Assembly (NCBI GenBank): GCA_017622795.1
Contig: JAGAQI010000014.1
Coordinates: forward strand, 1 to 53,473
DNA: 53,473 nt
Direction of reading: 5' to 3'
Origin: Lachnospiraceae bacterium
GTDB taxonomy: Bacteria > Bacillota > Clostridia > Lachnospirales > Lachnospiraceae
A model generated the notes under the pieces. The model saw nothing but the letters and a program-made list of their open reading frames with translations. It searched no databases and was not told the DNA's origin. This document shows, piece after piece, positions 204 through 53,353 of this stretch (its first letter is position 1; every line of letters begins with the position of its first letter). The position numbers and the translations under genes are program-made.

Positions 204-268
204 GGTCAATAGTAAAAAAACGTCCTGCCGGAACATAAAGTTCCGCAAGACGCTTTTTACTATTGACC
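204..268 (-). terminator. Terminator-like inverted repeat reaching into the DUF2442 stop
   Basis: Arms of about 30 bases face each other around a five-base loop near 235-239. In the minus direction the hairpin starts with the last codons and stop of the DUF2442 gene, continues through a GC-rich core (GCGTCTTGCGGAAC against GTTCCGGCAGGACG) and is followed by a T-run. It is probably the terminator of the two-gene unit. The stem is unusual because it contains coding sequence. The stretch from 1 to 203 holds no gene I can support. Confidence 0.8.
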
Positions 269-517
269 TTTGCTTATTCGCGCATATTCATAAATTATAT
301 CACTTGGGAGATCAATATAATCATTCCAAAATACACAGGTTCTACTTTCATCCAATTGAACCAAGTCAAACAACCCCGGAATTTCCTTCAAAGCAGAATA
401 TCCTTCCAATGTGCGTATGTCTTCATTCATATCGTACATGCAATCTTTCCCATCATCAAAAATCACATGCAGATGATAATTTTCTGATACAGTTACACTC
501 TTTATTCTTGGAATCAT
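260..517 (-). CDS. DUF2442 family protein
   Basis: This 85-residue protein matches the DUF2442 family in length and pattern: a strand-rich N-terminus (PRIKSV then HVIFDDGK), an acidic central stretch, and a conserved end where the residues CVFWNDYIDLPSD lie. The start is the ATG at 517, which has AAGGAG just upstream; an ATG at 541 lies in frame but would place the ribosome site inside the coding region. It follows the DUF4160 gene by 24 bases on the same strand and probably shares its transcript. DUF4160 and DUF2442 genes are commonly found side by side, and such small pairs are often suspected of being toxin-antitoxin modules, but no activity can be read from the sequence. The final codons form one arm of the terminator hairpin. 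Confidence 0.85.
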   Translation of the reverse strand: MIPRIKSVTVSENYHLHVIFDDGKDCMYDMNEDIRTLEGYSALKEIPGLFDLVQLDESRTCVFWNDYIDLPSDIIYEYARISKGQ

Positions 518-541
518 ACTAAAGTCTCCTTTCTGCCACAC

Positions 542-793
542 TTATAGAGGTGGCAATTTTCTCAGTTTCTGGCTATCCCACATCTGCAACAAAGCCTGTT
601 GATTACGACTAAGCCATTCTTTTATCAGTCCTTGTGCTTTTATAGGCATGTCGCCTTCTGTCATTTCCATTGTTCTTAAATCGAAGATACCAACATACTC
701 CCCATACAACGCATGTATGTGACTTGGCTCATGTTCTTTTGGTTTAAAGAACATCTTAATGATAATTCCATAAAATCTACTAATTTCGGGCAC
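542..793 (-). CDS. DUF4160 family protein, GTG start
   Basis: This 83-residue protein has the DUF4160 signature: an N-terminal PEISRFYG followed by IIIKMFF, then HEPSHIHALYGEY, where the histidines and the glycine-tyrosine are the conserved core, and a C-terminal helix ending in WLSRNQQ and ALLQMW. I chose the GTG at 793 because GGAAAGGAG lies five bases upstream; the in-frame ATG at 814 has no ribosome site and would swallow this one. It is the first gene of a two-gene unit with the DUF2442 gene. A promoter with an 18-base spacer lies at 843-872. A role as half of a toxin-antitoxin-like pair is inference only. Confidence 0.85.
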   Translation of the reverse strand: MPEISRFYGIIIKMFFKPKEHEPSHIHALYGEYVGIFDLRTMEMTEGDMPIKAQGLIKEWLSRNQQALLQMWDSQKLRKLPPL

Positions 794-842
794 GTACTCT
801 CCTTTCCGTTGCACTTCCCGAAAGAAAACTCGTCACAGCTTT

Positions 843-872
843 ATTATATATCATATCCCTGCCTTCTGACAA
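843..872 (-). promoter_or_regulatory. Promoter of the DUF4160-DUF2442 unit
   Basis: Read on the minus strand, TTGTCA (867-872) is followed after 18 bases by TATAAT (843-848). The predicted start of transcription is about 40 bases upstream of the GTG start codon. Confidence 0.75.
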
Positions 873-904
873 TAACTTTTCGCCACATCCCATTCCTCTC
901 TATT

Positions 905-1310
905 CAGCCATACCCATCAGGAATCCTTTCCGCAAGCCATATACTACGATTTTTGCGCCCCATGTTTTCCGGGCGTTTTCTTTTAAACCCTCGCAGAAAG
1001 GCGCAGACTTTTCTCGGAGCGGCTTGCGTAGGATGTATAGATTTTCTCATATTCTGCCAAGCTTCCAGCAATTCGCAGACAAGACGTCTGCGAAAGGCAT
1101 AGCTGAGCCACGGATGGCGAATCCATGCCGGTTGCGTGGCACATAAAAACCGCCCTGCAGAATATGCAAGAAAATCATATATCCGAAGCTTGAAGCGAAG
1201 AGAAAAATCTGCACCTTTCTGCGACAATAAAAGGAAACGCCCCAGACGAATCTGGGGCGCTAAAATCCATATGTAGTTTACGCGAAAGGATTCTCAGATG
1301 GGTATGGCAG
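905..1310. repeat. Long inverted repeat copying the isomerase 3' end and terminator
   Basis: The left arm (about 905-1057) is an inverted, diverged copy of the right arm (about 1157-1310). The right arm contains the last codons of the isomerase gene, its stop codon, its terminator and about 60 further bases. Shared blocks include GCCATACCCATC, GAATCCTTTC, GCGCCCCA, TCGCAGAAAGG and CATATTCTGC, in the same order with small gaps. The centre (1060-1156) holds two further small hairpins, CGCAGAC/GTCTGCG at 1074-1092 and GCCACG/CGTGGC at about 1107-1140. This explains most of the gene-free stretch from 794 to 1277. Open frames on both strands here are by-products of the repeat. Confidence 0.85.
1226..1260 (-). 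terminator. Terminator of the isomerase gene
   Basis: In the minus direction a nine-pair stem (CGCCCCAGA against TCTGGGGCG) closes a three-base loop and is followed by a T-rich tail. It lies about 20 bases after the stop codon. A decayed copy of the same terminator lies in the opposite arm of the long inverted repeat near 956-985. Confidence 0.85.
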
Positions 1311-2762
1311 GCTCTTTGGCTGGTTGTAGCCGATTTCGTCGTAAGCCACGCCGATGTACTTAAGAACTTCGAAAATGGACTTTCCGAAGTGACCGAATGC
1401 AACTGCACCGTGGTGAGGATAATTCTTCTCAACCAGTACGTGACGGTAGAAGCGACCCATTTCCTTGATTGCAAATACACCGATAGCACCGAAGGACTTA
1501 GTTCTTACGTCAAGAACTTCACCCTCTGCAACATATGCACGAAGGATGTTATCAGAGGTGGACTGCAGACGGAAGAATGTGATATCGCCAGGAAGAATAT
1601 CGCCTTCCAACGTTCCGTTGGTAACTTCGATAGGAAGATTTCTTGCCATGATCTTCTGGTACTTCATCTCACAGAAAGCAAGCTTGCTGGAGCATGTGTT
1701 ACCGCAGTGGAAGCCCATAAAGGTATCCTTATGTGTATATGGGAACTTGCCTTCGATGGATTCCTTGTACATATCTGCAGGAACGGAGTTATTGATATCA
1801 AGTAAGGTAACTGCATCTTCACTTACGCAAGTACCGATGAACTCGGAAAGTACGCCGTAGATATCTACTTCACAGGATACAGGAATACCGCGGCCTGTGA
1901 GACGGCTGTTTACGTAACATGGTACGAAACCGAACTGAGTCTGGAATGCAGGCCAGCACTTACCGGCGATAGCAACGAACTGACGGCTGCCCTTGTTAGC
2001 TTCTACCCAGTCAAGAAGTGTGATTTCGTACTGAGCAAGCTTTTCAAGAACTTCAGGCTTCTTGTTGCCTGCGCCAAGTTCCTTAGCCATGTCTGCAGCA
2101 ACTTCCTTAATTCTTGGGTCACCTGCATGATTGTTGAACGCTTCGAACAGGTCGAGCTCGGAGTTTTCTTCGATTTCTACGCCAAGGTTGTAAAGCTGCT
2201 TGATAGGAGCGTTACATGCGAAGAAGTTCTTTGGTCTTGGACCGAAGGAGAAAATCTTTAAGTTAGCGAGGCCGTAGATTGCTCTTGCAATCGGAAGGAA
2301 CTCGTTAATCATATCTGCACATTCTTCCGCAGTACCTACAGGATACTCTGGGATGTATGCCTTTACGTTACGGAGTGCAAGGTTGTAGCTTGCGTTTAAC
2401 ATACCGCAGTATGCATCGCCACGGCCGTCAAGTAAGTCAGCCTGGGATTCTTCTGCTGCTGCCACAAACATCTTAGGACCGTCGAACTTTTCTGCGAGCA
2501 TGGTCTCGGAAATTTCAGGACCGAAGTTACCAAGGTATACGCAAAGTGCGTTACAACCTGCTGCCTTGATGTCTTCTAATGCCTGCTGCATATGTATTTC
2601 ACTTTCTACGATACAAACAGGACACTCATAAATGTCTGCTGCATCATACTTTGCAGCGTATGCTGCTACAAGTGCCTTTCTTCTGTTTACAGCCAGGGAC
2701 TCTGGGAAACAGTCACGGCTTACTGCAACGATACCGATTTTCATTTTTGGTACATTGTTCAT
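1278..2762 (-). CDS. L-fucose/L-arabinose isomerase family protein
   Basis: This 494-residue cytoplasmic protein belongs to the ketol isomerase superfamily that includes L-fucose isomerase and L-arabinose isomerase. The N-terminal Rossmann-like domain begins at MKIGIVAVSRDC, the middle domain carries ALCVYLGNFGPE, and the C-terminal active-site region has CEVDIYGVLSE, LLDINNS and HHGAVAFGHFG, which supply the glutamate, aspartate and histidine ligands for the divalent metal. The true substrate cannot be fixed by eye, so no symbol is given. The start at 2762 is supported by AAGGAGG eight bases upstream. The gene is monocistronic, with its own promoter and terminator. Its last codons are duplicated in inverted orientation at about 905-935. 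Confidence 0.85.
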   Translation of the reverse strand: MNNVPKMKIGIVAVSRDCFPESLAVNRRKALVAAYAAKYDAADIYECPVCIVESEIHMQQALEDIKAAGCNALCVYLGNFGPEISETMLAEKFDGPKMFVAAAEESQADLLDGRGDAYCGMLNASYNLALRNVKAYIPEYPVGTAEECADMINEFLPIARAIYGLANLKIFSFGPRPKNFFACNAPIKQLYNLGVEIEENSELDLFEAFNNHAGDPRIKEVAADMAKELGAGNKKPEVLEKLAQYEITLLDWVEANKGSRQFVAIAGKCWPAFQTQFGFVPCYVNSRLTGRGIPVSCEVDIYGVLSEFIGTCVSEDAVTLLDINNSVPADMYKESIEGKFPYTHKDTFMGFHCGNTCSSKLAFCEMKYQKIMARNLPIEVTNGTLEGDILPGDITFFRLQSTSDNILRAYVAEGEVLDVRTKSFGAIGVFAIKEMGRFYRHVLVEKNYPHHGAVAFGHFGKSIFEVLKYIGVAYDEIGYNQPKSLPYPSENPFA

Positions 2763-2870
2763 TGTAAAACCCTCCTTAAAATTTTTCTCATGCGAGTTTC
2801 TTTTGAGAAAATTTCTCTATAATAACTGTACTTCAAACCGGCTGAAAAAAATACCGCCTGAATTATATTA

Positions 2871-2899
2871 ATTTTATCGCGATTTTTCTACCCTGTCAA
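2871..2899 (-). promoter_or_regulatory. Promoter of the isomerase gene
   Basis: On the minus strand TTGACA (2894-2899) is separated by 17 bases from TAAAAT (2871-2876). A TCGCGA palindrome touches the upstream edge of the -10 box and might be an operator half-site. The rest of the leader holds no riboswitch that I recognise. Confidence 0.8.
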
Positions 2900-2980
2900 C
2901 GAGATAAACGGCTACTTACTTCTCAAATATTGCTATAAAAAACTTTCTAAAAAAATTTTTGTAATTTTTCCAAAAAGTAC

Positions 2981-3009
2981 TTGCAATTTTTGAATTCATG
3001 TCGTATAAT
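2981..3009 (+). promoter_or_regulatory. Promoter of tRNA-Gln
   Basis: TTGCAA (2981-2986), a 17-base spacer and TATAAT (3004-3009) lie 31 bases upstream of the tRNA. Confidence 0.8.
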
Positions 3010-3040
3010 ATCATTCGTGTCGAGGACATACTAAATACAT

Positions 3041-3112
3041 AGGGCTATCGCCAAACGGTAAGGCAACGGACTCTGACTCCGTCATCTCAAGGTTCGAATC
3101 CTTGTAGCCCTG
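3041..3112 (+). tRNA. tRNA-Gln (anticodon CUG)
   Basis: The cloverleaf is complete: a seven-pair acceptor stem (AGGGCTA with TAGCCCT), a D-arm with GGTAAGG, an anticodon arm ACGGA-CTCTGAC-TCCGT whose loop carries CTG, and a T-arm CAAGG-TTCGAAT-CCTTG. The discriminator is G and the CCA end is not encoded. It stands alone with its own promoter and terminator. Confidence 0.95.
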
Positions 3113-3117
3113 CTCTT

Positions 3118-3146
3118 AACTCAGCAGAATCTGCTGAGTTTTTTGT
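3118..3146 (+). terminator. Terminator of tRNA-Gln
   Basis: A perfect stem (AACTCAGCAG with CTGCTGAGTT) closes a three-base loop and is followed by a T-run. Confidence 0.9.
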
Positions 3147-3164
3147 TTTCTGAAATACCCTTAT

Positions 3165-3207
3165 ACAAAAACAAACAGCAGGCACGAATCACTTCATGCC
3201 CGCTGTT
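3165..3207 (-). terminator. Terminator of the oxidoreductase operon
   Basis: Read on the minus strand, AACAGC and GGCATGAA pair with ATTCGTGCC and GCTGTT, with a single bulge, followed by TTTGTTTTTG. It lies 13 bases after the oxidoreductase stop codon. Confidence 0.85.
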
Positions 3208-3220
3208 ATTTTTTTACTGT

Positions 3221-4387
3221 TTATCTTCTCCAGCTCTGATCCATCTTCGCCGTAATTTCTACCACGTTATCCTTTTTCTTGGAAGCCTGCACTCTCTTCT
3301 GAAGCTCCTCGTAATATAAATCTTCATCAAAAGGAAGCTCCACAATCTTTCCGGTAAATGCGGATAAATGCATGGCGTTGGAAAGCATAACACCGTTAAT
3401 GCCTTCTGCACCGTCTGCCACCATCGGGGTTCCTTCTAAGATTGCCTTACCCCAGGCATTGATCACACCTACATGCTGCGGATTTTCGCCGTCTGTCTCA
3501 GGGTCATATTCCTCTGTCTTCGGATAACCGAACGGAGAAGTACAGGTCTTGGTAAATTCAGGCTCTGACATTTCAAACTCCCAAACATGCAGTCTGTTGT
3601 GCTCTACCAGAAGCTTTGCCTTGTCCATCTGAACCTCAAAACGGTTGCTTCCGCAGGCATCGCCGGTGGTGGTGATAAAGGTACCGGTTGCGCCGTTTTC
3701 ATATTCCACGAAGCAGGTTACATCATCTTCTACCTCAATATCGTGCCACTGGCCAAACTTCATGTTGGCATACACCTTCTTTGGCATGCCGCAAATCCAC
3801 TGCCACATATCTAACTGGTGAGGGCTCTGGTTTAATAAAACACCGCCGCCTTCGCCTGCCCAGGTAGCTCTCCAGCTGCCGGAATCATAATATACCTGCG
3901 GACGGTACCAGTCAGTAATAATCCAGTTGGTTCTGCGGATGTTACCGTACTTACCGGACTGAACCAGTTCTCTCATCTTTCTGTATACACAGTTGGTTCT
4001 CTGATTGAACATTACACCAAACTTTACTTCCGGATGGGCAGCTGCACACTCATTCATTTCACGGATCTGCTTGGTATAAACGCCTGCCGGCTTATCAATC
4101 ATTACGTGTATGCCGCGCTTGATGCATTCGATAGCATAGTGTGGATGGTCATAGTGCGGTGTTTCTACCATGCAGGCATCTAACATACCGCTGTCTAACA
4201 TTTCTTCCGCGGTGGTAAAAATCTTTACACTTTCATTTAAATTTTCCTTTGCCCAATTCTGACGCTTTGGACTGATATCTGCTACAGCCACCAGTTCAAA
4301 GTCCGGACATTCGCCGTTTGTTACCTTGGTTGCATAATTAGAACCCATGTTACCGATACCGATAATACCTAATTTAATTTTTCCCAT
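3221..4387 (-). CDS. Gfo/Idh/MocA family oxidoreductase
   Basis: This 388-residue protein is an NAD(P)-dependent sugar or inositol dehydrogenase-like enzyme. The N-terminal Rossmann fold shows the dinucleotide motif GIIGIGNMGSNYA (residues 7-19), and the family signature lysine-proline occurs in MIDKPAG near residue 97. The central sheet domain contains GEGGGVLLNQSPHQLD, with the aspartate and histidine used in catalysis by the family, followed by a region lining the sugar site. The second gene of an operon, it follows the TIM-barrel isomerase by 23 bases and has AAAGGAG before its start. The pairing of such an oxidoreductase with a xylose-isomerase-like protein under an AraC regulator is typical of loci for oxidised or unusual sugars. 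The substrate is unknown. Confidence 0.9.
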   Translation of the reverse strand: MGKIKLGIIGIGNMGSNYATKVTNGECPDFELVAVADISPKRQNWAKENLNESVKIFTTAEEMLDSGMLDACMVETPHYDHPHYAIECIKRGIHVMIDKPAGVYTKQIREMNECAAAHPEVKFGVMFNQRTNCVYRKMRELVQSGKYGNIRRTNWIITDWYRPQVYYDSGSWRATWAGEGGGVLLNQSPHQLDMWQWICGMPKKVYANMKFGQWHDIEVEDDVTCFVEYENGATGTFITTTGDACGSNRFEVQMDKAKLLVEHNRLHVWEFEMSEPEFTKTCTSPFGYPKTEEYDPETDGENPQHVGVINAWGKAILEGTPMVADGAEGINGVMLSNAMHLSAFTGKIVELPFDEDLYYEELQKRVQASKKKDNVVEITAKMDQSWRR

Positions 4388-4410
4388 GATACTTCTCCTT
4401 TAATTATTCT

Positions 4411-21148: not shown

Positions 21149-22306
21149 ATGCGAAAATTATTTTACGAAAATATTAACCTTACCGACTTTACTGCCACCG
21201 TAGTCTCCTGCGAACCAACTACCGATGGCAAGCAATACCGGGTGGTTCTGGATGCCACTTCCTTTTTTCCGGAAGAAGGCGGACAGTCTGCTGACAAGGG
21301 CACATTAAACGGTCTGCCTGTTTTAGATGTACAAATCAAGGATGATTTGATTTACCACTATCTGGAACAGCCCCTGGAACCGGGCACTTCTGTTACGGGA
21401 CACGTGGACTGGGAGCAGCGTTTTGACTTTATGCAGCAGCACTCCGGTGAGCATATTGTATCCGGACTGGTGCATAACCGCTTTGGCTACAATAATGTCG
21501 GGTTTCACTTAAGCAACAACGAAGTCACCTTAGATTTTAATGGTGAACTTACTCCTGCCCAGGTGCGGGAAATCGAGCTTCGTGCCAACGAAATCATTTA
21601 CAAAAATCTGCCGGTAGAAATTACGTACCCTTCCAAAGAAGAACTGGCGGCACTTTCCTACCGCAGTAAAATTGAAATTGAGGGGCAGGTCCGCATTGTC
21701 ACCATCCCCGGCGTGGATGTTTGCGCCTGCTGTGCCCCGCATGTGGCACATACCGGAGAAATCGGCATGATTAAAATAACAAACTGCCAAAGCCACCGGG
21801 GCGGAGTCCGTTTAAACATTCTCTGCGGCGCCAGAGCCCTTGCAGACTATAACAAAAAGCAGGACAGCGTTGCCGCCGTTTCCGTGGCACTTTCCGCAAA
21901 GCAGGATTTAATTGCAGATGCCGTGCTTAAATTAAAAGACGATATGCTCCGCCAGCAGGAACGTATCAACAACCTGCAGGCAGAATACTTAAAATTAAGC
22001 ATCTCCACTCTGCCTTCCCCTGAAGAAAGCGAGCACGCTATCCTCTTTGTAGATAAAATGGATACCATCGCCATCCGCAACACCGTAAATTCCTTGGTTG
22101 AAAAGTACTCCGGCTACTGCGCTGTATTCTCCGGCGACGAAGAAACCGGCTATTCCTTTATTGTGGGAAGTAAGAATAAAGACTGTAAAGAACTTGCCCA
22201 AATTCTCAGAACGGAGCTGGGCGCAAAGTGCGGAGGCAATACCCCGATGATTCAGGGAAGCGTAACCGCAATAAAAGAAAAGATACAAACTTTCTTTTCC
22301 CTATAA
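21149..22306 (+). CDS. AlaX-type alanyl-tRNA editing protein
   Basis: This 385-residue protein resembles the C-terminal part of alanyl-tRNA synthetase and hydrolyses mischarged seryl- or glycyl-tRNA(Ala). The N-terminal half has FFPEEGGQSADKG, then the zinc/editing motifs HSGEH (in QQHSGEHIVS) and CACCAPHVAHTG. The C-terminal part has a coiled coil and a DHHA1-like end with GAKCGGNTPMIQGS. This corresponds to the long AlaX-L type. The ribosome site AAAAGGAG precedes the start, which lies 19 bases after the sensor gene, so it may be cotranscribed with the signalling genes. Its stop codon is four bases from the giant hairpin shared with asnS. Confidence 0.92.
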   Translation: MRKLFYENINLTDFTATVVSCEPTTDGKQYRVVLDATSFFPEEGGQSADKGTLNGLPVLDVQIKDDLIYHYLEQPLEPGTSVTGHVDWEQRFDFMQQHSGEHIVSGLVHNRFGYNNVGFHLSNNEVTLDFNGELTPAQVREIELRANEIIYKNLPVEITYPSKEELAALSYRSKIEIEGQVRIVTIPGVDVCACCAPHVAHTGEIGMIKITNCQSHRGGVRLNILCGARALADYNKKQDSVAAVSVALSAKQDLIADAVLKLKDDMLRQQERINNLQAEYLKLSISTLPSPEESEHAILFVDKMDTIAIRNTVNSLVEKYSGYCAVFSGDEETGYSFIVGSKNKDCKELAQILRTELGAKCGGNTPMIQGSVTAIKEKIQTFFSL

Positions 22307-22310
22307 AATT

Positions 22311-22606
22311 ACTTCCGCTCCTAAGAACTTATATTAACTGCGACTTAATAACAATGTAACGCAAAAGAGGCTGTGATATAAAAAAATTTTTAAGCACTAC
22401 ATTATCCAAGTGTCTGACCTCTCAGCTGACAGATGTTCAAACAGGATGGACAAACGTGCTTTTCGTTTGTTCCAGCTTGGATGAACGGCTGTCAGAGGAG
22501 GCAGGCAGACACGGATAACGTAGTCTCAAAAATTCCTTATATCACAGCCTCTTTTATGTTCTTGTTATTATAAATCGCAGTTGTTAACAGTTCTTGGGAA
22601 CGGAAG
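22311..22606. repeat. Giant inverted repeat carrying a copy of the asnS 3' end
   Basis: The left arm (about 22311-22437) is an inverted, diverged copy of the right arm (about 22480-22606). The right arm includes the last twelve or so codons of asnS. Shared blocks in order are CTTCCG, AAGAACT, AACTGCGA, ATAACAA, a perfect AAAAGAGGCTGTGATATAA, ATTTTT, ACTAC, TTATCC, GTGTCTG, TGACAG and GTTCA. An inner hairpin, ACAAACG with CGTTTGT, caps the structure at about 22450-22470. AlaX and asnS converge on it, so it is probably their shared terminator, though far longer than a normal one. Confidence 0.88.
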
Positions 22607-23959
22607 AACGTCACGGATGTTGCCCATACCGGTAAGGTACATTACACAACGCTCTAAACCTAAACCAAAGCCCGCATGTCTTGCGGAACCGTACTTTCTA
22701 AGGTCAAGGTAGAAGTCATAGTCCTCCTTCTTAAGTCCAAGCTCATCCATTCTCTTGGTAAGCTTTTCGTAATCGTCTTCTCTCTGGCTGCCGCCGATGA
22801 TTTCACCGATACCAGGCACTAAGCAGTCCATAGCGGCAACGGTCTTGCCATCTTCGTTTAACTTCATGTAAAAGGCCTTGATATCCTTTGGATAATCGGT
22901 TACGAATACCGGCTTTTTAAATACCTGCTCGGTTAAGTAGCGCTCATGCTCGGTCTGAAGGTCACAGCCCCAGAATACCTTGTAGTCGAACTGGTCATTG
23001 TTCTTTTCCAAAATTTCAATAGCTTCTGTATAAGTAACATGGCCAAACTCGGAGTTAAGCACGTTGTTCAGTCTGTCAAGTAATCCCTTATCCACGAAGG
23101 AATTGAAGAAGTTCATTTCTTCCGGAGCGTTTTCTAACACATAGCGTATGATATACTTAATCATGCTTTCTGCCAGAACCATATCGTCCTTTAAGTCGGC
23201 AAATGCAATTTCCGGCTCTACCATCCAGAACTCAGCCGCATGGCGGGTGGTGTTGGAGTTTTCTGCACGGAAGGTTGGTCCGAAGGTGTAAATATTGCGG
23301 AATGCCATAGCATAGGTTTCACCGTTTAACTGGCCGCTTACGGTAAGGTTGGTTGGCTTGTTGAAGAAATCCTGTGTAAAATCTACCTTGCCATCCTCTG
23401 TCATTGGCACATTGCTTAAATCCATGGTGGTTACCTGGAACATTTCGCCGGCACCCTCACAGTCACTGCCTGTGATAAGTGGGGTGTGAACGTATACGAA
23501 ATCTCTTTCCTGGAAGAACTTATGAATTGCATAAGAAACCAGAGAGCGTACACGGAACACTGCCTGGAAGGTGTTGGTTCTTGGACGCAGATGAGTCATG
23601 GTTCTTAAAAATTCTAAAGTATGTCTCTTCTTCTGTAATGGGTAATCCGGTGTAGATGCACCTTCTACAACAACTTCCTCTGCCTGAATTTCGAATGGCT
23701 GCTTAGCCTCCGGTGTAGCTACCAGCTTACCGGATACGATAATTGCGGAGCCTACGTTTAACTTACTGATTTCATTGAAATTATTTAAATTATCGCTGTA
23801 AACAATCTGTAATGTTTCAAAAAATGTACCGTCGTTCAACACGATAAATCCAAAAGTCTTGGAATCTCTGACGCTGCGCACCCAGCCGCCAACGGTGATG
23901 TTCTTGTCTAAATAGTTTTCTTTGTTGCGGTATAATTCGCGAATTGTGATTAAATCCAT
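22568..23959 (-). CDS. asnS: Asparagine-tRNA ligase
   Basis: This 463-residue class II synthetase charges tRNA-Asn with asparagine. It has an N-terminal OB-fold anticodon-binding domain (about 1-115, with [12 protein letters not shown]) and a catalytic core with motif 2 ([20 protein letters not shown]) and motif 3 ([15 protein letters not shown]). The presence of the HAAEFWMVE sequence and the length fit AsnS rather than AspS. The start is supported by AGGAAAGGACGGGAG, and a promoter lies at 23999-24027. No T-box leader is present. Its last codons form one arm of the giant inverted repeat. Confidence 0.97.
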
Positions 23960-29325: not shown

Positions 29326-29437
29326 CTCTTATTCAGAGTGACGGAGAGTAAAGACTCAGTGAAGTCACGGCAACCCCCGGAAGGAAAGGTGCCAAGTTGA
29401 GCGAGTATACTGCCCCTGGCAGTTCGAACAATAAGAG
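29326..29437 (+). ncRNA. SAM riboswitch (SAM-I clan)
   Basis: P1 is CTCTTATT (29326-29333) with AATAAGAG (29430-29437). The core shows CAGAGTGACGGAG, GTGAAGTCACGGCAACC and AAGGTGCCAAGTTG, which are the hallmark SAM-I clan segments, although the P3 helix (AGAGT with ACTC) differs from the common GGACTGGCCC type and may indicate a SAM-I/IV variant. The 3' strand of P1 contains AATAAG, which can pair instead with CTTATT in the loop of the downstream terminator (29465-29470). This gives a simple antiterminator switch controlling metK. Confidence 0.9.
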
Positions 29438-42112: not shown

Positions 42113-42190
42113 AAAAAGCCGGATGCTTACACACCCGACTCTATCATAACACTTTTTTAGTTTTTTTTCAATCCGTGCATCCGGCTTTGA
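42113..42190 (-). terminator. Long-loop hairpin after the SRP RNA
   Basis: AAAGCCGGATGC (42179-42190) pairs perfectly with GCATCCGGCTTT (about 42115-42126), followed by a T-run. The loop of about 50 bases contains the promoter of the tatD operon (42143-42171). This is the only hairpin with a T-run after the SRP RNA, so it probably ends that transcript. Confidence 0.65.
42143..42171 (-). promoter_or_regulatory. Promoter of the tatD operon
   Basis: On the minus strand TTGAAA (42166-42171), 17 bases, TATGAT (42143-42148). Confidence 0.75.
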
Positions 42191-42436
42191 ACACGACTCA
42201 TAAACGGTACCATCACAGTTAGCTCCTCCCCGGCACCCTTACGGCACACGGAACTTTTCGCTTAGTGCTGCTCCATTCCTGACCTGACACGGTTCACGAA
42301 CATCCGTTGCGCAAGACCAGAGTATCAACACCACTTATGATGGGCGGCTTTACAAGAACCTGCCCGAGGCCGGATATCACCCCTGCTGGAGCGGATTGCA
42401 GGTACAGGGCACCGCTAACTCCCCGGCTGCACGGCA
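42180..42436 (-). ncRNA. ffs: Signal recognition particle RNA, large bacterial type
   Basis: The minus strand carries the Alu-domain segment GCCGTGCAGCCGGGGAG and AGTTAGCGGTGCCCTGTACC near the 5' end, and the S-domain segment GTGTCAGGTCAGGAATGG and AGCAGCAC at 42265-42290. The S-domain tetraloop is GGAA with an A-U closing pair instead of the usual C-G. The RNA binds Ffh and directs ribosomes to the membrane. The 5' end is set by the promoter (about 42436); the 3' end is approximate. Confidence 0.93.
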
Positions 42437-45466: not shown

Positions 45467-47323
45467 ATGAATCTCTTAACCCTAGAAAATGTAAGTAAAA
45501 GCTTCACGGAACGTATGCTCTTTGACCATATCAGCTTAGGAATAAATGAAGGGGACAAAATCGGCGTCATCGGTATTAACGGCACCGGTAAGTCCACCCT
45601 GCTTAAAATCATTGCTGGTTTGGAAGATACGGATGAAGGAAAGCGCACCTGCGGTAACAAGCTGCGCATCGCATACCTGCCGCAGACTCCGGTGTTTGAC
45701 GACACCAAATCCATTCTTGCCAATGTATGCGAAGGACAGACTGCAAAAGAAAGCTACCGTAACATCACCGGCGAAGCCCGTTCCATGCTTTTAAAGTTTG
45801 GTATTAACAATCCAGAAGGCAGTGCTTCCACTCTGTCCGGCGGCCAGAAAAAACGCGCTGCTCTGGTCCGCACCCTGCTTACCGAATCCGATTTACTTGT
45901 TTTGGACGAGCCGACCAACCACTTGGACAGCGACATGACCGAATGGCTGGAGGAGTACTTAAACAAGTGGAAGGGCGCCTTTATCATGATTACCCATGAC
46001 CGGTATTTCCTTGACCGCGTCACCAATAAAATCGTGGAACTTGACAAAGGAAAGCTCTACTCCTATCAAACCAACTATTCCGGCTTCATTGCCTTAAAAG
46101 CAGAACGGGAAGAAATGGCTCTTGCTACCGAAAGAAAAGCAAAAACCCTGTTTAAAACCGAGCTTGCCTGGATGCAGCGTGGCGCCAGAGCCCGCTCCAC
46201 CAAACAGAAAGCGCATATTCAGCGGTTTGAAGCCCTCCGGGACCGTGAAAAAATTGTAGAGGACGGTTCCGTAGAAATCAACGCCCTCTCCTCCCGTATG
46301 GGCAAAAAAACCATCGAGCTTTATGATATCTGCAAAAGCTATAACGGTGTCACCCTCTTTGAGCCCTTCCGCTACATTTTGCTCTCCACCGACCGCATCG
46401 GTATTGTGGGACACAACGGCTGCGGCAAATCCACCCTGCTGAATATCATCACCGGAAAAATTGAGCCGGACACCGGCTATGTGGACATGGGCACCACCAT
46501 GAAAATCGGTTACTTCTCCCAGGAGAACGAAGCCCTGGACCCAAATCTAACAGTATTACAATATGTCCGCGACACCGCCGAATACATCGAAACCAAGGAA
46601 GGCACCATGTCCGCTTCCGCCATGTGCGAGCAGTTCCTCTTTGACGGTTCCATGCAGTATACCCGTATCGAAAAATTATCCGGTGGCGAAAAGCGCCGTC
46701 TGTACCTACTAAAGGTGCTGATGGAAGCACCGAATGTTCTGATTTTGGACGAGCCAACCAACGATTTGGACATCCAGACCTTAACTATTTTGGAAAGCTA
46801 TTTAGAAGATTATCCCGGTATCGTGGTTACCGTTTCCCATGACCGCTATTTTCTTGATAAAATTGCTACACGTATCTTTTCCTTCGAGAACGGTAAAATT
46901 GCCCGTTATGAAGGAAATTACAGCGATTTTAAGGAGGCTCAGAAGGAACGGGGCATCGTAGCCGCAAACTCCGCGCCAAAGAATAGCATAAAGAACGGCG
47001 GCAATACATCCGGTGCTGCAAATTCTGCCACGGATAACCCAGATTCCGCCGACTCCAAATCCACCTGGAAGCAGAGGGACAGTAAACTTAAATTCTCCTA
47101 TAAAGAGCAGAAAGAATACGAAACCATTGATGCCGACATTGCCGCTTTGGAAGAAAAAATCGCCAATTTAGAAATGGAAATTGCCGGAGCCGCAACCCAG
47201 TATTCCCGGCTCACCGAACTGATGACAGAAAAAGAACAGGCCGAAACTGCCCTGGAAGAAAAAATGGACCGATGGGTTTATTTAAATGATTTGGCAGAGC
47301 AGATTGAGGCCGCAAAAAAATAA
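45467..47323 (+). CDS. ABC-F family ribosome-associated ATPase
   Basis: This 618-residue cytoplasmic protein has two ABC domains and no membrane segments. Domain one has GINGTGKST, LSGGQKKRAAL and LLVLDEPTNHLD. The interdomain linker (about 225-300) is the arm that reaches the peptidyl-transferase centre. Domain two has GHNGCGKST, LSGGEKRRLYLL and VLILDEPTNDLD. A basic, Ser/Ala-rich linker leads to a C-terminal coiled coil (about 545-618). Members either rescue stalled ribosomes or protect against antibiotics; which applies cannot be told from the sequence. The ribosome site is GGAAGGAAA. Confidence 0.93.
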   Translation: MNLLTLENVSKSFTERMLFDHISLGINEGDKIGVIGINGTGKSTLLKIIAGLEDTDEGKRTCGNKLRIAYLPQTPVFDDTKSILANVCEGQTAKESYRNITGEARSMLLKFGINNPEGSASTLSGGQKKRAALVRTLLTESDLLVLDEPTNHLDSDMTEWLEEYLNKWKGAFIMITHDRYFLDRVTNKIVELDKGKLYSYQTNYSGFIALKAEREEMALATERKAKTLFKTELAWMQRGARARSTKQKAHIQRFEALRDREKIVEDGSVEINALSSRMGKKTIELYDICKSYNGVTLFEPFRYILLSTDRIGIVGHNGCGKSTLLNIITGKIEPDTGYVDMGTTMKIGYFSQENEALDPNLTVLQYVRDTAEYIETKEGTMSASAMCEQFLFDGSMQYTRIEKLSGGEKRRLYLLKVLMEAPNVLILDEPTNDLDIQTLTILESYLEDYPGIVVTVSHDRYFLDKIATRIFSFENGKIARYEGNYSDFKEAQKERGIVAANSAPKNSIKNGGNTSGAANSATDNPDSADSKSTWKQRDSKLKFSYKEQKEYETIDADIAALEEKIANLEMEIAGAATQYSRLTELMTEKEQAETALEEKMDRWVYLNDLAEQIEAAKK

Positions 47324-47329
47324 AGAAAA

Positions 47330-47385
47330 AAGGCTGCACAGGTTCTTCTTATTAAAGTGTACCTGCTTGCAGCCTTACTTTTATT
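47330..47385. terminator. Shared terminator between the ABC-F and AI-2E genes
   Basis: AAGGCTGCACAGGT (47330-47343) pairs with ACCTGCTTGCAGCCTT (47361-47376), with a two-base bulge. A-runs and T-runs on both sides serve convergent genes. Confidence 0.85.
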
Positions 47386-48436
47386 CTTCCGTTATACTAC
47401 TGACTTTCCATATACTCTTAATTAAAACCAATCCAAAGGGTCCCAGAAACAGTCCCGGCACACCAAATAACTCATATCCTATATATACTGCCATAAGACT
47501 CTGTACCGGGCGGATACCCATTTTACCCCCCAGAAGCTTGGGCTCCAGGTACTCCCTGATAAACTGACACACACCAAACAAAGTGAGCAATACCGCTCCC
47601 GCAAATGCCTTGCCCCTGATAAAGCTAACTATCGACCAGGGCACTAAAATCAGACCGCTGCCAAGTACCGGAAAAGCATCAAACAGCCCAATAGCCAAAC
47701 CAAATAACATTGCATAGGAATTTCTGATCAAAAGCAATCCCAAGGTACATACGGTACTGACCAGAAGAATCAAGACTATCTGGGTTTTTACATAAGCAAT
47801 CCCGGCTCCCGAAAGCTCATGCCTTACCTGATGCCATTCCTTCTCCATGAAGGATAACATTCCTGTTTCCTTTTTTTCTTCTTTTTTGTACTGTTCCCCT
47901 ATTGTATCCGCAAGAAACAGCAGAACCGCCACAAAAACAATAATAACTGCTGCTACCAGTTCCGTAACCGAAAGCGCCGCTTTTAAAGAATTTTTCGTTA
48001 AAAACGGTATCAGTTCCTCCCGAAAAAAGAGCACAATTCCATCCAAACCGTCACTGAGTACGGTAAAAGTTCTTCCCTTTTCCAAACGAAGCAGCGAATC
48101 AAAATACCCGCAGGCACCTTCCATGTACCCGCCCCATTCCTCTGCGTACATGTCATAATTTCCTACAAATTCCGCAAACTGACCAAGTAAAAGCTTTACT
48201 GCATAAGCAATTCCTCCGCCGACAGTACCTAAAAAGACAATTAAAAGAAACGCTCCCGCAATAGCCGGTTTTATTTTGAAACGTCTCCACAAAAAACGTA
48301 CCGGTTTTCGCAGTACCGCTGCGATAAAATATGCTAAAATAAATGGGAAAAACAAAGGCAGGAGAAATCGGAATCCTAAATATACAATTCCAATAATTAC
48401 TGCCAGTCTCACCAGTTTCTTATATTTCTCCCGCAT
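47381..48436 (-). CDS. AI-2E family transporter-like membrane protein
   Basis: This 351-residue integral membrane protein has about eight membrane segments, an N-terminal basic start, a periplasm-facing loop of about 100 residues and the conserved C-terminal pattern of the family: AIGLFDAFPVLGSGLILVPW, then FIREYLEPKLLGGKMG and YELFGVPGLFLGPF. The family includes TqsA and sporulation-associated YtvI-like proteins. Despite the name, many members do not move autoinducer-2, and the substrate here is unknown. Confidence 0.9.
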   Translation of the reverse strand: MREKYKKLVRLAVIIGIVYLGFRFLLPLFFPFILAYFIAAVLRKPVRFLWRRFKIKPAIAGAFLLIVFLGTVGGGIAYAVKLLLGQFAEFVGNYDMYAEEWGGYMEGACGYFDSLLRLEKGRTFTVLSDGLDGIVLFFREELIPFLTKNSLKAALSVTELVAAVIIVFVAVLLFLADTIGEQYKKEEKKETGMLSFMEKEWHQVRHELSGAGIAYVKTQIVLILLVSTVCTLGLLLIRNSYAMLFGLAIGLFDAFPVLGSGLILVPWSIVSFIRGKAFAGAVLLTLFGVCQFIREYLEPKLLGGKMGIRPVQSLMAVYIGYELFGVPGLFLGPFGLVLIKSIWKVSSITEE

Positions 48437-48508: not shown

Positions 48509-48515
48509 AAAATTA

Positions 48516-49856: not shown

Positions 49857-49883
49857 AATTTTTCTCCTTTTTCCCTTTAAAAA

Positions 49884-50579
49884 TTATTTTAAAGTAATTA
49901 CGGTAAATTCATGACCGTAAAAGCTTTCTTTGGTTACTTCACCGATCTCTTTTTCTTTTGCAAAATCTTCTTCCGGACGGTTTAAGGAAAGGATCAATCG
50001 GGAATAACCTCCCTTGCCTTCCGCATCTGCTTTTTCATATGCGGCAGCCTCGTCCTTTAAAATTTTTGCTAAAATGTCCGGAGCGCAATCGGTGGAATCC
50101 AGCACCAGATTATAGTTGGACATATTAAAATATTCGATATTATAAAGCTCTTTGTAGCGAGTATCTTCTGTTTCTGCGCGTTTCTTTAAATTGGCCTTCG
50201 CATCCTCTAAAGATGCATAATGCTCTACTTCTCCGCGGGTTGCATCTCCTGCTACACGCTTTGCAGCCACATCCAGGCTGACAGATAAAAATACCTTAAA
50301 GGACTTGTCCACAAAATGCCAGGCCAGGCGGGAATCAAATAAAATACTCTTATCCGGATTTTCCCTGGAGATTCTTGCAGTCGTATCATCAATTTCATGA
50401 TCATACTTTGGATCTTTATTCATCAGCTCATTCATTTCCAACACGCTGAGCCCATGCTCTTCTGCAATTTTACGGATTACCTTTCCGGTGGAAAAAATTT
50501 CATATCCGTATTCTGCTTCTAATATTTTACTTAATGTGGACTTACCACTTCCTAAATTACCTGTTAATGTAATATGCAT
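49884..50579 (-). CDS. Cytidylate kinase-like P-loop protein
   Basis: This 231-residue protein has Walker A GNLGSGKST at residues 7-15 and an AAA_17/cytidylate-kinase-like core, with GYEIFSTGKVIRKIAEEHG, the aspartate in FDSRLAWHF and the lid region RVAGDATRGEVEHY. The C-terminal 50 residues are an extra segment not seen in ordinary CMP kinases. The family often includes shikimate- or cytidylate-kinase-like proteins of uncertain substrate. It is upstream of the lipoprotein gene by 27 bases on the same strand. Confidence 0.8.
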   Translation of the reverse strand: MHITLTGNLGSGKSTLSKILEAEYGYEIFSTGKVIRKIAEEHGLSVLEMNELMNKDPKYDHEIDDTTARISRENPDKSILFDSRLAWHFVDKSFKVFLSVSLDVAAKRVAGDATRGEVEHYASLEDAKANLKKRAETEDTRYKELYNIEYFNMSNYNLVLDSTDCAPDILAKILKDEAAAYEKADAEGKGGYSRLILSLNRPEEDFAKEKEIGEVTKESFYGHEFTVITLK

Positions 50580-50655
50580 GTTTATGTACCGACCTTTCTT
50601 TGGTAGTTTTATTAAAATATTGTAACAAAAAAAACAAAGGCTGTCTACGCATTGT

Positions 50656-50684
50656 TTGCAAAAGTTTTTATTGCATGGTATAGT
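50656..50684 (+). promoter_or_regulatory. Promoter of the VanZ gene
   Basis: TTGCAA (50656-50661), 17 bases, TATAGT (50679-50684), divergent from the kinase-like gene. Confidence 0.8.
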
Positions 50685-50738
50685 ATGTTTGTTATTTGTT
50701 TACACTTTTTTAGACTAATAAAAGGAGTTTTTCTTTCC

Positions 50739-51257
50739 ATGAAAATAAATCACACAAATAAACCTGTTGTCACTCTGTTGTTGAAAATAGGATCTTTTCT
50801 TCCTACCTTGCTTTTACTGTTCCTGATTTTTGGATTTTCCGCTCAGGATGGCGAGTCCTCCGGTTCGCTGAGTTTTGAAATCAGTCTCTTTCTTGTAAAG
50901 CTGAGCTCTCCTCTTCTTCCGGCAGCCATGTCCGAGGAAGTTCTTTTTGAGCGGGCAGAACTGATTCACTATTTTGTAAGAAAAGCAGCCCACATGACTG
51001 AATATTTTTTACTTGCGCTTTCCTTACAACTACCGCTTACTGCCTGGCTGTCAAAAATTCTTTTCTGGAAACACCGCATTTTTATCGGTTTTGCTACTAC
51101 CGTATTGTTTGCTGCTTTCGATGAATTTCATCAGACCTTCGTTCCCGGAAGAAGCGGAAATTTCACCGATGTATGCATTGACTCCACCGGAGCACTTGCC
51201 GCCTCTTTATGTTTATTATTGTTTTATTCCATACGTCAAAAAAAGCTTGCCCGGTAA
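50739..51257 (+). CDS. VanZ family membrane protein
   Basis: This 172-residue protein has four membrane segments and the VanZ-like motifs FGFSAQDGESS, RKAAHMTEYFLLALSL and the end AAFDEFHQTFVPGRSGNFTDV with the aspartate-glutamate pair. VanZ-like proteins are often envelope-related; the original member gives low-level teicoplanin resistance, but most homologues have no known role. AAAGGAG precedes the ATG at 50739. The last codons (Lys-Leu-Ala) are the 5' arm of the terminator at 51240-51276. Confidence 0.9.
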   Translation: MKINHTNKPVVTLLLKIGSFLPTLLLLFLIFGFSAQDGESSGSLSFEISLFLVKLSSPLLPAAMSEEVLFERAELIHYFVRKAAHMTEYFLLALSLQLPLTAWLSKILFWKHRIFIGFATTVLFAAFDEFHQTFVPGRSGNFTDVCIDSTGALAASLCLLLFYSIRQKKLAR

Positions 51258-51276
51258 CAGGCAAGCTTTTTCTTTA
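51240..51276. terminator. Terminator overlapping the VanZ stop
   Basis: AAAAGCTTGCC pairs with GGCAAGCTTTT around an eight-base loop that contains the VanZ stop codon, with T-runs in both directions. It also ends the convergent Na/Pi symporter gene. Confidence 0.9.
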
Positions 51277-51280
51277 TACT

Positions 51281-53080
51281 TTACGCTTCTTTTTTCACAA
51301 TTTTATACTTAGCAGAATATTCACGGTAGAGTTTGTCAAATTCGCCCTCTTCCTTTAAATGATGCTTATATTCATGAATGTCTAAGTCTTCGTGTTCAAC
51401 CATCTCAATAATACAGCTTGCCACGTTGGAGCAGTGGTCAGATACACGCTCTAAGTTGGTAAGAATATCAGAAAGGACAAAACCATGCTCCATAGTACAT
51501 TCTTCTTTTTGGAGACGTTTGATGTGACGCACGCGGATTTGTTCCTTTAAATCGTCCACAACCTGCTCTAAAGGTTCTACCGTGTAAGCTTTCTTTTCAT
51601 CCTGAGAAATAAAGGCCTCTTCGGTTATTTGCATAATCTCGTTGATAGCATTATACATTACACTAAGTTCATCCACTGCCTTTTCAGAGAACTGTAAGCC
51701 CTTGTCCTTTATTTCATCTGCCGAATCTACAATGTTTACCGCATGGTCAGAAATACGCTCAAAGTCACCAATCATATAGAGAAGTTTTGTAACTTCCTGA
51801 CTGTCGATTTCTGTCATACTTCTGGCAGAAAGCTTCATCAAATAAGAACCAAGAACATCTTCGTAAACATCCACCTTGTCTTCCGCGTCATGCACTTCCT
51901 GCGCAACTTTATCATCATAGGTATTCAGCAAGGTAATGGACTGCTGGATTGCCTTGGAAGAAAGCTTTGCCATCTGGTCGGCCACTTCATAACAACGCTC
52001 GATTGCAACAGAAGGGGTTTCCAATAAACGTTCATCTAACATATCGGTATAGCTGTCGCCCTTGGTATCGGTACCCTTGATGGTAGCCATAGCAAGTTTT
52101 TCCAATAAATTGGACACAGGCATAAGTAAAGCAACAGAGAAAATCTTAAAAATAGTATGAACCGCTGCAATGCCCCACATGTCGATAACTGTGCCCTCTG
52201 CCCAGGCAAATAATCCAAATACACCGGTACTGGTTAAAATCCAGCCAATAAGATAATATGCACCCATCCACAGTGCTACACCAATAATATTAAAATACAA
52301 ATGCACTAACGCTGCTCTCTTACCATTCTTATTGGCACTGATGGAGGAAAGCATTGCCGTTACACAGGTACCGATATTCTGACCCATAACGATTGGCATT
52401 GCTGCCGCATAAGAAATAGCTCCGGTAGTAGATAACGCCTGTAAAATACCAACAGAAGCAGAAGAAGACTGCACTACAGCAGTAAGCACTGTACCTGCTA
52501 AAATGCCAAGAATCGGATTCTTAAACAACAACAGAATCTGCTGGAATTCCGCACTTTCTTTTAAACCGCTTACCGCACCGGACATTAAGTCCATACCTAC
52601 CATCAGCACTGCAAAGCCCATAAGAATTGCACCGAAGTCTTTCTTCTTTTCTCTCTTAGCAAACATAATCAGGCAAATACCGATTAATGCTAAGATAGGC
52701 ATCCATGCATCCGGCTTTAACCACTTTAACCATTCGGTTGCTTCTGCAGCGCTGCCACCAATACCATTTAACGCCGTTAACCAGGCTGTTACCGCCGTAC
52801 CTACGTTGGCACCCATAATAACTCCGATTGCCTGGGACAGCAACATGGTTCCGGAGTTTACGAAACCTACTACCATTACGGTTGTTGCGGAAGAAGACTG
52901 AATTACCGCCGTTACACCAAGGCCAAGTAAAAATCCTTTCCACTTACTGGAGGTTAAATTACCAAGAATAGTTTTTAACTTTCTGCCCGCACTCTTTTTC
53001 AGGGCATCGCCCATGACATCCATACCGTAAAGGAATAATGCCAGGCCGCAAATTAGGGTTAACACATCAAATAAGTCCAT
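51281..53080 (-). CDS. Na/Pi symporter family protein with PhoU-like domain
   Basis: This 599-residue protein has an N-terminal membrane domain (about 1-330) with the paired NaPi-cotransporter motifs VIQSSSATTVM near residue 60 and VVQSSSASVGIL near 202, and a C-terminal PhoU-like helical domain (about 350-560). Family members carry inorganic phosphate with sodium (NptA type) or phosphate-like anions. The ribosome site before the ATG at 53080 reads AGGAG followed by ACTACAA. A promoter lies at 53167-53195. Confidence 0.94.
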   Translation of the reverse strand: MDLFDVLTLICGLALFLYGMDVMGDALKKSAGRKLKTILGNLTSSKWKGFLLGLGVTAVIQSSSATTVMVVGFVNSGTMLLSQAIGVIMGANVGTAVTAWLTALNGIGGSAAEATEWLKWLKPDAWMPILALIGICLIMFAKREKKKDFGAILMGFAVLMVGMDLMSGAVSGLKESAEFQQILLLFKNPILGILAGTVLTAVVQSSSASVGILQALSTTGAISYAAAMPIVMGQNIGTCVTAMLSSISANKNGKRAALVHLYFNIIGVALWMGAYYLIGWILTSTGVFGLFAWAEGTVIDMWGIAAVHTIFKIFSVALLMPVSNLLEKLAMATIKGTDTKGDSYTDMLDERLLETPSVAIERCYEVADQMAKLSSKAIQQSITLLNTYDDKVAQEVHDAEDKVDVYEDVLGSYLMKLSARSMTEIDSQEVTKLLYMIGDFERISDHAVNIVDSADEIKDKGLQFSEKAVDELSVMYNAINEIMQITEEAFISQDEKKAYTVEPLEQVVDDLKEQIRVRHIKRLQKEECTMEHGFVLSDILTNLERVSDHCSNVASCIIEMVEHEDLDIHEYKHHLKEEGEFDKLYREYSAKYKIVKKEA

Positions 53081-53166
53081 TTGTAGTCTCCTGTCTCTTT
53101 CGTTGTTTTACACTTGTGTTACTTTAAAATTACATCAAAATTACTTCCATTTTACAATACAGATAT

Positions 53167-53195
53167 AGTATACAACAAAAGTTCACAATATACAA
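53167..53195 (-). promoter_or_regulatory. Promoter of the Na/Pi symporter gene
   Basis: On the minus strand TTGTAT (53190-53195), 17 bases, TATACT (53167-53172). Confidence 0.7.
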
Positions 53196-53240
53196 AGGGA
53201 TTTTTCCAGAAAAAGAAGATTTTACATAGATTTTACTTTT

Positions 53241-53300
53241 AGGCGGGTTCAAATCTGCATGGCGACAACCAGATGTTGAATAAGTTCAAATCTGGAGTCT
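53241..53300. repeat. Partial copies of the tRNA-Cys 3' end in alternating orientation
   Basis: AGTTCAAATCTGG (53283-53295) is an exact inverted copy of 13 bases of the tRNA-Cys T-arm. GGCGACAACCAGAT (53261-53274) is an exact copy of 14 bases of the tRNA 3' end in the tRNA's own orientation. GTTCAAATCTG (53247-53257) is a second inverted copy. They lie beyond the tRNA terminator. Confidence 0.8.
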
Positions 53301-53307
53301 TCTAAGT

Positions 53308-53353
53308 AAACGAAAAAGACTGCACACATTTGAGTATGCAGTCTTTTTCGTTT
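53308..53353 (-). terminator. Terminator of the tRNA-Cys unit
   Basis: AAACGAAAAAGACTGCA (53308-53324) is perfectly complementary to TGCAGTCTTTTTCGTTT (53337-53353) around a 12-base loop. In the minus direction it follows the tRNA by one base and ends in a T-run inside the stem. Confidence 0.88.

Follow-up and report, generated by a model that had tools for sequence, protein, structure and literature searches.

In one genus of gut bacteria, some genes end in long hairpins in which their own end is repeated backwards, and we consider it likely that such gene-end hairpins grow and are edited by fold-back copying, that is, by hairpin-primed template switching. The evidence begins in a 53,473-nucleotide (nt) stretch of DNA analyzed at its full length, here called the window (contig JAGAQI010000014.1 of a Lachnospiraceae bacterium, assembly GCA_017622795.1). 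An earlier note on this window had reported inverted gene tails beyond four terminators and proposed that a nascent strand primes on the terminator hairpin and copies itself back. That proposal is supported by the sister genomes, by a 69-nt insertion at a purC-like gene, by concerted block changes in three of seven orthologous gene pairs and by an inverted hairpin core.

In the proposed pathway, a hairpin (an intrinsic terminator, often tipped by a dispersed structured core) would stall DNA synthesis, and the nascent strand would fold back; with its end paired to the gene-side arm, it would be extended there, copying the gene tail backwards before returning to the normal template. The outcome would be an inverted gene-tail copy placed directly past the old arm. 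In the same way, one arm could serve as template for changes in the other, and the tip could be inverted. Selection would then apparently retain the RNA hairpin that forms in the transcript of the gene. We infer that the copying is done by replication and not by repair or reverse transcription, that the cores promote it and that the hairpin matters to the messenger RNA (mRNA); any account of how the cores spread stands on the same footing.

The window's own genome (G000; 3.23 Mb, 147 contigs, 86.6% complete) was compared with three sister genomes of the same genus (G001, G002 and G003). In the own-tail test, to which the p values of individual gene ends below refer, the last 36 coding nt of a gene were compared with the 220 nt beyond the core (300 nt downstream for ordinary gene ends and those beside palindromes) and ranked against 648 gene tails drawn from G000 and G002, the own tail being included where its gene was sampled.

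Inverted gene tails at asnS and an isomerase-like gene

Among the matches listed, the longest inverted repeat of the window lies at the 3' end of asnS, the gene for asparagine--tRNA ligase (TIGR00457, 637.8 bits), with 79-nt arms at 75% and a gapped extension to the full palindrome of Table 1. The inverted asnS tail beyond the terminator was confirmed: the palindrome has 141 pairs and holds 38-39 coding nt in one arm, and the inverted copy of this tail begins 5 nt past the convergent gene at 21149-22306. The asnS tail beats nearly all 648 gene tails on its own downstream side (p 0.0046), and the palindrome folds strongly as RNA (z -19.2 versus 100 shuffles). The inner stem differs block-wise in both arms in G001. 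The presence of the asnS palindrome in two separate assemblies with independent changes, together with its imperfect arms, makes an assembly origin unlikely. We think that the palindromes are not assembly products, although mirror artefacts may exist in the G000 assembly, given contig C8. This contig (265,006 bases) is a mirror of itself around a midpoint near 132,503, with paired genes in L172 and core matches at 4035-4177 and 260830-260972 whose coordinates sum to the contig size plus 1; it is either an assembly artefact or a genuine large inverted duplication. Only its first half was used in the palindrome search and only its first 120 kb in the own-tail test, and four of the seven high-scoring gene ends of a first G000 count, all from C8, were discarded.

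The third-longest inverted repeat among the matches listed ends a gene carrying an L-fucose isomerase C-terminal domain (PF02952, 112.1 bits). Here too the inverted tail that had been described was found: the palindrome comprises 193 pairs, includes about 30 coding nt of the gene in its arm (p 0.0046) and folds with a z of -14.1 against 100 shuffles. Its tip is a TwoAYGGAY RNA whose Rfam strand is opposite to the gene.

Table 1. Features at gene ends of the window with inverted tail sequence
Feature	Position	Strand	Remarks
DUF2442 terminator hairpin	204..268	-	15-nt perfect outer arms; 9 coding nt of open reading frame (ORF) 260-541
Long palindrome at 3' end of isomerase-like gene	907..1308	-	gene 1278-2762
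Inverted copy of isomerase tail	907..933	+	
TwoAYGGAY RNA (RF01731), tip of isomerase palindrome	1024..1191	+	108.6 bits, gathering 43
Last coding nt of isomerase-like gene in gene-side arm	1278..1308	-	
Long palindrome at asnS 3' end	22312..22606	-	outer arms are asnS tail and its inverted copy
Inverted asnS-tail copy beyond terminator	22312..22350	+	inner end approximate
Terminator-like inner stem AAAAGAGGCTGTGATAT..ATATCACAGCCTCTTTT around core	22363..22555	-	
Family-1 core, structured hairpin tip	22401..22516	-	model match 22387-22530 minus flanks, 147 bits
Final 39 nt of asnS in gene-side arm	22568..22606	-	gene 22568-23959
Second inverted fragment (53247-53264) overlapping direct tRNA-Cys 3'-end copy (53261-53274)	53247..53274	.	
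Inverted copy of tRNA-Cys T-arm region, past terminator	53283..53295	+	
tRNA-Cys terminator hairpin	53307..53354	-	21-nt arms

A dispersed core with locus-specific arms

When the contigs of G000 were searched with the asnS palindrome, its centre was found to recur elsewhere. A covariance model of this core, family 1, was built from 21 copies and located at least 25 places in G000 (two of which mirror one another), at least 13 in G001, at least 11 in G002 and at least 8 in G003, counted as distinct places among 150 candidates scored per genome, many of which appear on both strands. Across 150 Lachnospiraceae genomes (one per genus), family 1 was found in G000 and weakly in one other (43 and 41 bits). 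No credible Rfam match was obtained for 16 family-1 loci even at E<=1; RF01731 gave none on them at that level, and the sole overlaps were with two microRNA models far below gathering. Family 1 is a dispersed structured core without a credible Rfam match, found in these searches in one Lachnospiraceae lineage and weakly in one other genome. Two-sided, pair-keeping changes were seen at 33 of its 44 predicted pairs (21 sequences), with the caveat that the outer pairs belong to the arm and that template copying could also yield such changes. A pattern of the conserved boxes matched 54 stretches in named genomes and 4 viral sequences; the model confirmed 7, all on the metagenome-assembled genome Lachnospiraceae RGIG8982, and the other 51, being unconfirmed, were taken as chance.

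Outside the core, the arms differ between non-orthologous loci, yet each pairs with itself. The usual copies of dispersed stem-loop repeats and miniature inverted-repeat transposable elements (MITEs) share their arms, whereas here the tip alone is shared and the arms are local. A single mobile repeat with shared arms is thereby ruled out, and the terminal inverted repeats that all copies of a MITE or other transposon derivative would share are lacking. The view that these loci are not one dispersed mobile repeat thus holds for the gene-specific outer arms; it does not hold for the centres, which are dispersed both at asnS (family 1) and at the isomerase-like gene (TwoAYGGAY).

The cores have a preferred position relative to genes. 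Of 57 family-1 places, 56 (44 and 12 in two batches) were examined, the mirror image being left out; a few of these places are incomplete or at the end of a contig. At 40 of them (30 and 10), a protein gene runs in at a distance of up to 70 nt, always from the same side of the core, two further places have the RNase P RNA gene (rnpB) there, and at L037 the gene is a short one missed by the ORF rule. Of the 56, 12 have a gene entering from the opposite side at a distance of up to 70 nt. Where only one side has such a gene, it is the usual side at 31 places and the opposite side at 3, one of the latter being an rnpB locus. The arm spans at least 10 coding nt of the run-in gene at 24 of the 40.

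TwoAYGGAY RNA was found in 21 of the 150 Lachnospiraceae genomes, with copy numbers that are floors, at most 17 candidates having been scored per genome. Of 30 TwoAYGGAY loci among the matches listed for other genomes, 25 were used (one of these being G000's own), and the other five, L320-L324, with strand not recorded, were excluded. A core-anchored palindrome of 213-552 nt surrounds 20 of the 25, with mixed orientation, and only one of these 20 has a run-in gene with at least 10 coding nt in the arm. Two of the hairpins, L314 and L319 from other Lachnospiraceae genera, measure 552 and 507 nt; the Rfam model is 168 nt long. At L010:1414-1758, G000 has a TwoAYGGAY hairpin flanked by a T-box leader and a glycine--tRNA-ligase-like start; in the corresponding orthologous sequence of G001 and G003 (L143 and L164) the T-box is present and RF01731 has no match. 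Beyond the TwoAYGGAY core of the L011 aspartokinase-like gene, the old terminator, which G001 retains intact, is found by eye as an inverted copy.

Other dispersed cores were also noted. A third one, of about 100 nt with a CATCGAAACG / CGTTTCGATG box, sits at gene ends of G000 (L168:17145-17438, L181:2780-3005, L183:744-993 and L131). Beside it the own-tail copy reaches significance at two genes, that of L168 and yajC in L131 (p 0.003 each), and not at L134, the L183 locus (p 0.20). A further core of G002, with GCGTCC..GGACGC boxes, tips very long palindromes (L194:2350-2786, L194:6163-6304 and L198:3345-3632), and at L194:2350-2786 the inverted coding-tail copy scores 28.

Own-tail copies are tied to long hairpins

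The own-tail test was applied to the 39 family-1 run-in loci with enough sequence (30 and 9). It gave p<0.01 at 14 (0.4 expected; 12 of 30 and 2 of 9 by batch) and p<0.05 at 18 (2 expected; 14 of 30 and 4 of 9), with a combined p of 7e-15 for the batch of 30, which includes five orthologous pairs. Terminators at large gave a different result, and the idea that inverted tails would be in excess at them failed: ordinary gene ends reached p<0.01 at 0 of 156 in 373 kb of G000 (1.6 expected), 1 of 136 in G002, 0 of 179 in G007 and 3 of 132 in G031 (1.4, 1.8 and 1.3 expected). Gene ends beside a long palindrome did so at 2 of 18 in G000, 3 of 12 in G002, 0 of 4 in G007 and 0 of 5 in G031. Outside the genus, L216 in G007 was among the high scores that remained (score 48); it was rejected, as by eye its copies have no hairpin between them.

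Long palindromes, defined as those between genes with at least 30 Watson-Crick pairs, numbered 15 in 386 kb of G000, of which 12 lay at a gene 3' end and 10 extended into at least 10 coding nt, and 11 in 400 kb of G002 (10 and 5, respectively). The corresponding numbers were 17 in 400 kb of G007 (6 and 1), 11 in 280 kb of G031 (5 and 2) and 4 in 100 kb of G040 (2 and 1). Long palindromes are therefore not rarer in other genomes; those of this genus sit on gene ends and reach into genes. Own-tail copying is uncommon; it goes with long hairpins, which often have a dispersed tip.

Copies and cores across sister species

The own-tail test was also run on orthologous gene ends. At asnS the copy is present in G000 and G001 (p 0.005 and 0.003), and G003 and G002 have a plain terminator and no copy (0.53 and 0.80). 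The leuS tail gave 0.05 in G000 and 0.0015 in G001 versus 0.98 in G003 and 0.47 in G002, and the isomerase-like gene 0.005 in G000 versus 0.49 in G003, the G002 contig stopping at the stop codon. With cores, rnpB gave 0.006 in G000 and 0.0015 in G001; in G003 it has a plain terminator (0.92). At these four genes, sister genomes without the long hairpin are also without the copy, which supports fold-back copying. In G002, rnpB has a plain long stem with two inverted tail copies (p 0.0015) and no family-1 core.

Cores and copies also vary separately. The yajC copy accompanies family 1 in G001 (p 0.02) and a different core in G000 (0.003), with 0.48 in G003 and 0.39 in G002. The L037/L134 gene has a copy in G001 (0.0015). 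At the L023 gene the copy is present in G000 (0.0015) and in G001, where the core is lost (0.003), and G003 gave 0.72. The L026 gene has a truncated core and a copy in G000 (0.0015) and a full core without one in G001 (0.98), with 0.54 in G003 and 0.09 in G002. Elements without a significant coding copy were found at the L025, L044 and L045 genes and at the L011 aspartokinase-like gene, and the element of uxuA (L008) is missing from all three sister genomes. At L110 (G001 contig C27), the arms and gene-tail copy remain and the core is reduced to its two ends, illustrating a possible route to long hairpins without a core.

Two loci are the most telling. At the purC-like gene, which encodes SAICAR synthetase, the sequences of G000 and G001 can be aligned over the gene, the core and the far flank. 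The one large interruption, a 69-nt insertion in G000 between the shared far-arm end and the shared flank, consists mostly of diverged inverted gene tail (own-tail p 0.0015 in G000 versus 0.79 in G001). It is a templated inverted insertion at an inverted repeat, as is expected of template switching, and a gain of the copy in G000 is the likelier history. At the gene of L340 (G000) and L162 (G001), the gene-tail arm is present in both species and the core is flipped (109 antisense versus 33 sense). Arm growth and loop inversion are both predicted by template switching, and these two loci thereby support fold-back copying.

These comparisons also bear on an account in which the cores are mobile hairpins and insertion itself makes an inverted target duplication, the free end of the core folding back on the cut gene end and copying it. 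Dispersed cores with locus-specific arms, the single orientation to the gene at most family-1 loci and the joint absence of element and copy at asnS and leuS in G003 and G002 would all suit it. The purC-like and L026 genes, however, have the core in both species and the copy in just one, the G002 copies at rnpB are not accompanied by a family-1 core, and the yajC cores differ between sister species. We regard such insertion-coupled copying as unlikely. Fold-back copying at an existing hairpin accords with a natural series across the sister species, from core without copy through core with copy, flipped core and swapped core to copy without core.

A separate observation concerns L096 (G001 contig C55, about 33.9 kb), where two convergent genes share one palindrome. 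The last ~14 codons of a 275-amino-acid gene fall within the inverted copy of its neighbour's tail, and the C-terminus of that gene may derive from the copy. If fold-back copying operates as proposed, a gene end, and perhaps the C-terminus of a convergent neighbour, could be rewritten in one event.

Arm editing and selection on the transcript

In seven orthologous pairs, gap-free columns in which both arms had changed together numbered 6, 0, 0, 1, 11, 6 and 0, the three higher counts belonging to asnS (6), the purC-like gene (11) and rnpB (6). Editing between arms thus appears to happen, if not everywhere. In the family-1 arms of 37 loci (second orthologues omitted), G-U pairs were more numerous than A-C mismatches on the gene's sense strand, by 46:17 in the coding part and 97:46 in the rest; per locus, G-U was in excess at 25, A-C at 4, with 8 ties. 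Three TwoAYGGAY arms gave 17:10. This excess is moderate evidence that selection may keep the hairpin in the transcript. The earlier note had offered selection for mRNAs whose 3' end pairs with a self-antisense tail as a second option, and as a means of maintenance it gains some support from these counts.

As the origin of the hairpins, selection alone is very improbable. Under that explanation, point mutations would have built the pairing between tail and downstream sequence, a long 3' hairpin protecting or terminating the mRNA, which fits the G-U excess in the arms and the strong folding of the asnS and isomerase palindromes. Tens of matching coding bases, a 69-nt insertion and block changes in two arms are not what point-by-point change would leave.

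Replication strand and the role of the transcript

Template switching in Escherichia coli strongly prefers the leading strand, as cited in PMC8794818. By GC skew, 12 of 14 strong-copy loci and 18 of 22 loci overall are leading, against a background of 281 of 371 genes (p 0.30 and 0.35). At most loci, the gene whose tail is copied is the one that reads into the core, which has one orientation to it, and this holds on either strand.

Several results weigh against fold-back copying as we propose it, or limit its reach. No leading-strand preference beyond background is seen, and two strong loci, including the purC-like gene of G000, are lagging. That the copy follows the read-in gene is not predicted by a symmetric DNA mechanism alone and leaves room for a transcription-linked or RNA route. 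No significant tail copy was found at 21 of the 39 tested family-1 loci. Nor was one found at uxuA, clean by eye and with 13 coding nt in the arm (p 0.32), or at the L037/L134 gene in G000 with its different core (p 0.20). At the purC-like gene, loss of the copy in G001 is the alternative history; in G003 and G002 that core is missing and the tail test is not significant (p 0.07 and 0.78). Four of the seven orthologous pairs show 0 or 1 concerted columns, and in the same seven an old arm difference common to both species persists at 7, 8, 3, 13, 6, 0 and 9 columns. The family-1 core is without a G-U excess (68:93), the excess across all sampled gene-end palindromes is weaker (86:63, p 0.07, in G000; 63:37, p 0.01, in G002), and strand-biased mutation may be an alternative source of the excess.

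The room left by the strand pattern could be filled by an RNA route, in which a transcript ending at the hairpin would use its 3' end as primer for the reverse transcription of its tail, with the resulting DNA recombining into the chromosome. Such a route would explain why the copy tracks the transcribed gene on either replication strand, and it agrees with copies on leading and lagging genes alike, with the G-U excess on the gene's sense strand and with the mostly uniform orientation of family-1 cores to the gene. A group II intron piece near one locus is a weak pointer to it, and a DNA template switch yields the same products with known enzymes; we hold the RNA route to be rather improbable. 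We give a similarly low chance to a broader version, in which dispersed tips take up positions at gene ends, in the sense of the transcript, and there bring about self-primed copying of the 3' end of the host transcript. Were it true, each copy would grow gene-specific double-stranded arms and an antisense tail, and a transcription-linked, possibly reverse-transcribed process would remodel 3' ends and neighbouring C-termini genus-wide. Fold-back copying during DNA synthesis remains the reading that we prefer.

Relation to known systems

Quasipalindrome template-switch mutagenesis in E. coli (PMC7202029) is alike in self-templating at an imperfect inverted repeat, in templated changes and, at some of the present loci, apparently in arms that converge; here, by comparison, tens of bases of a gene's own tail are often copied, at many gene ends of one genus, and no leading-strand preference is demonstrable. 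For RNA genes, PMC8794818 describes template switching as creating and maintaining hairpins: insertions make new stems, loops are inverted and blocks change in pairs. Our loci would share the one-step origin of stems and the stem extension through insertion, and some show paired block changes or a loop inversion. The Discussion of that paper covers ribosomal RNA and microRNA, whereas our cases are gene 3' ends, coding tails and dispersed tips; the words 'terminator', 'untranslated' and 'protein-coding' are absent from its main text.

The core of the isomerase-like gene is a member of TwoAYGGAY RNA, RF01731 (PMC2864571, PMC4333381), a model whose external stem is poorly conserved (PMC4333381). 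At our locus, the outer stem is local, contains the gene's own tail and surrounds an RNA on the strand opposite to the gene. Fold-back copying would explain how long 3' hairpins arise and where the outer stem of TwoAYGGAY RNA, poorly conserved as it is, comes from. Dispersed stem-loop repeats and MITEs (PMC2267715, PMC3049150, PMC10969869) resemble the cores as short structured repeats scattered between genes. The coding palindromes of Nematomorpha mitochondria (PMC6649704) are likewise long inverted repeats with coding sequence, but those are described as perfect and inside genes, and the present ones are imperfect and straddle bacterial gene ends. Among the titles and abstract openings listed, with subscription journals mostly uncovered, no description of inverted gene-tail copies at bacterial terminators was found. 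What we describe is probably a known process, template switching, in a setting for which these searches found no description.

tRNA-Cys, DUF2442 and other features of the window

At tRNA-Cys, the reported inverted copy was found only in pieces (p 0.006), one in a palindrome at 53283-53376 and another at 53247-53264, and next to these the 3' end is also repeated in direct orientation (p 0.0015). Because the tail is also copied directly, this locus is better read as an integration site, and for it alone we somewhat favour the explanation that the repeated tails may be remnants of mobile-element integration, unrelated to fold-back copying. The direct copy adjoins the inverted ones; in G001 the last 43 nt of tRNA-Cys are repeated 9.6 kb away, and this second copy is likewise followed by that terminator and by inverted pieces; and G002 has comparable repeats by eye. 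The position of the inverted copies past the terminator, as at the other loci, speaks against it. The 9.6 kb in G001 (contig C44, 601-10239, with ends in L146 and L147), flanked by the tRNA-Cys 3'-end copies, fits an integrated element.

The claim for the DUF2442 gene, whose Pfam match is barely above cut-off, stood in part: perfect 15-nt arms exist, with just 9 coding bases among them and an A/T tract as the remainder, and the tail test gave p 0.003 on a segment picked after inspection. Elsewhere in the window, the tail of the plus-strand gene at 50652-51257 matches its downstream side in inverted orientation (p 0.009). The palindrome at 47273-47430 takes in both convergent tails and is weak and AT-rich, with 52 of 74 pairs Watson-Crick; no claim is made for it. 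Ordinary features by Rfam are a large signal recognition particle RNA at 42173-42434 and an S-adenosylmethionine riboswitch at 29326-29437.

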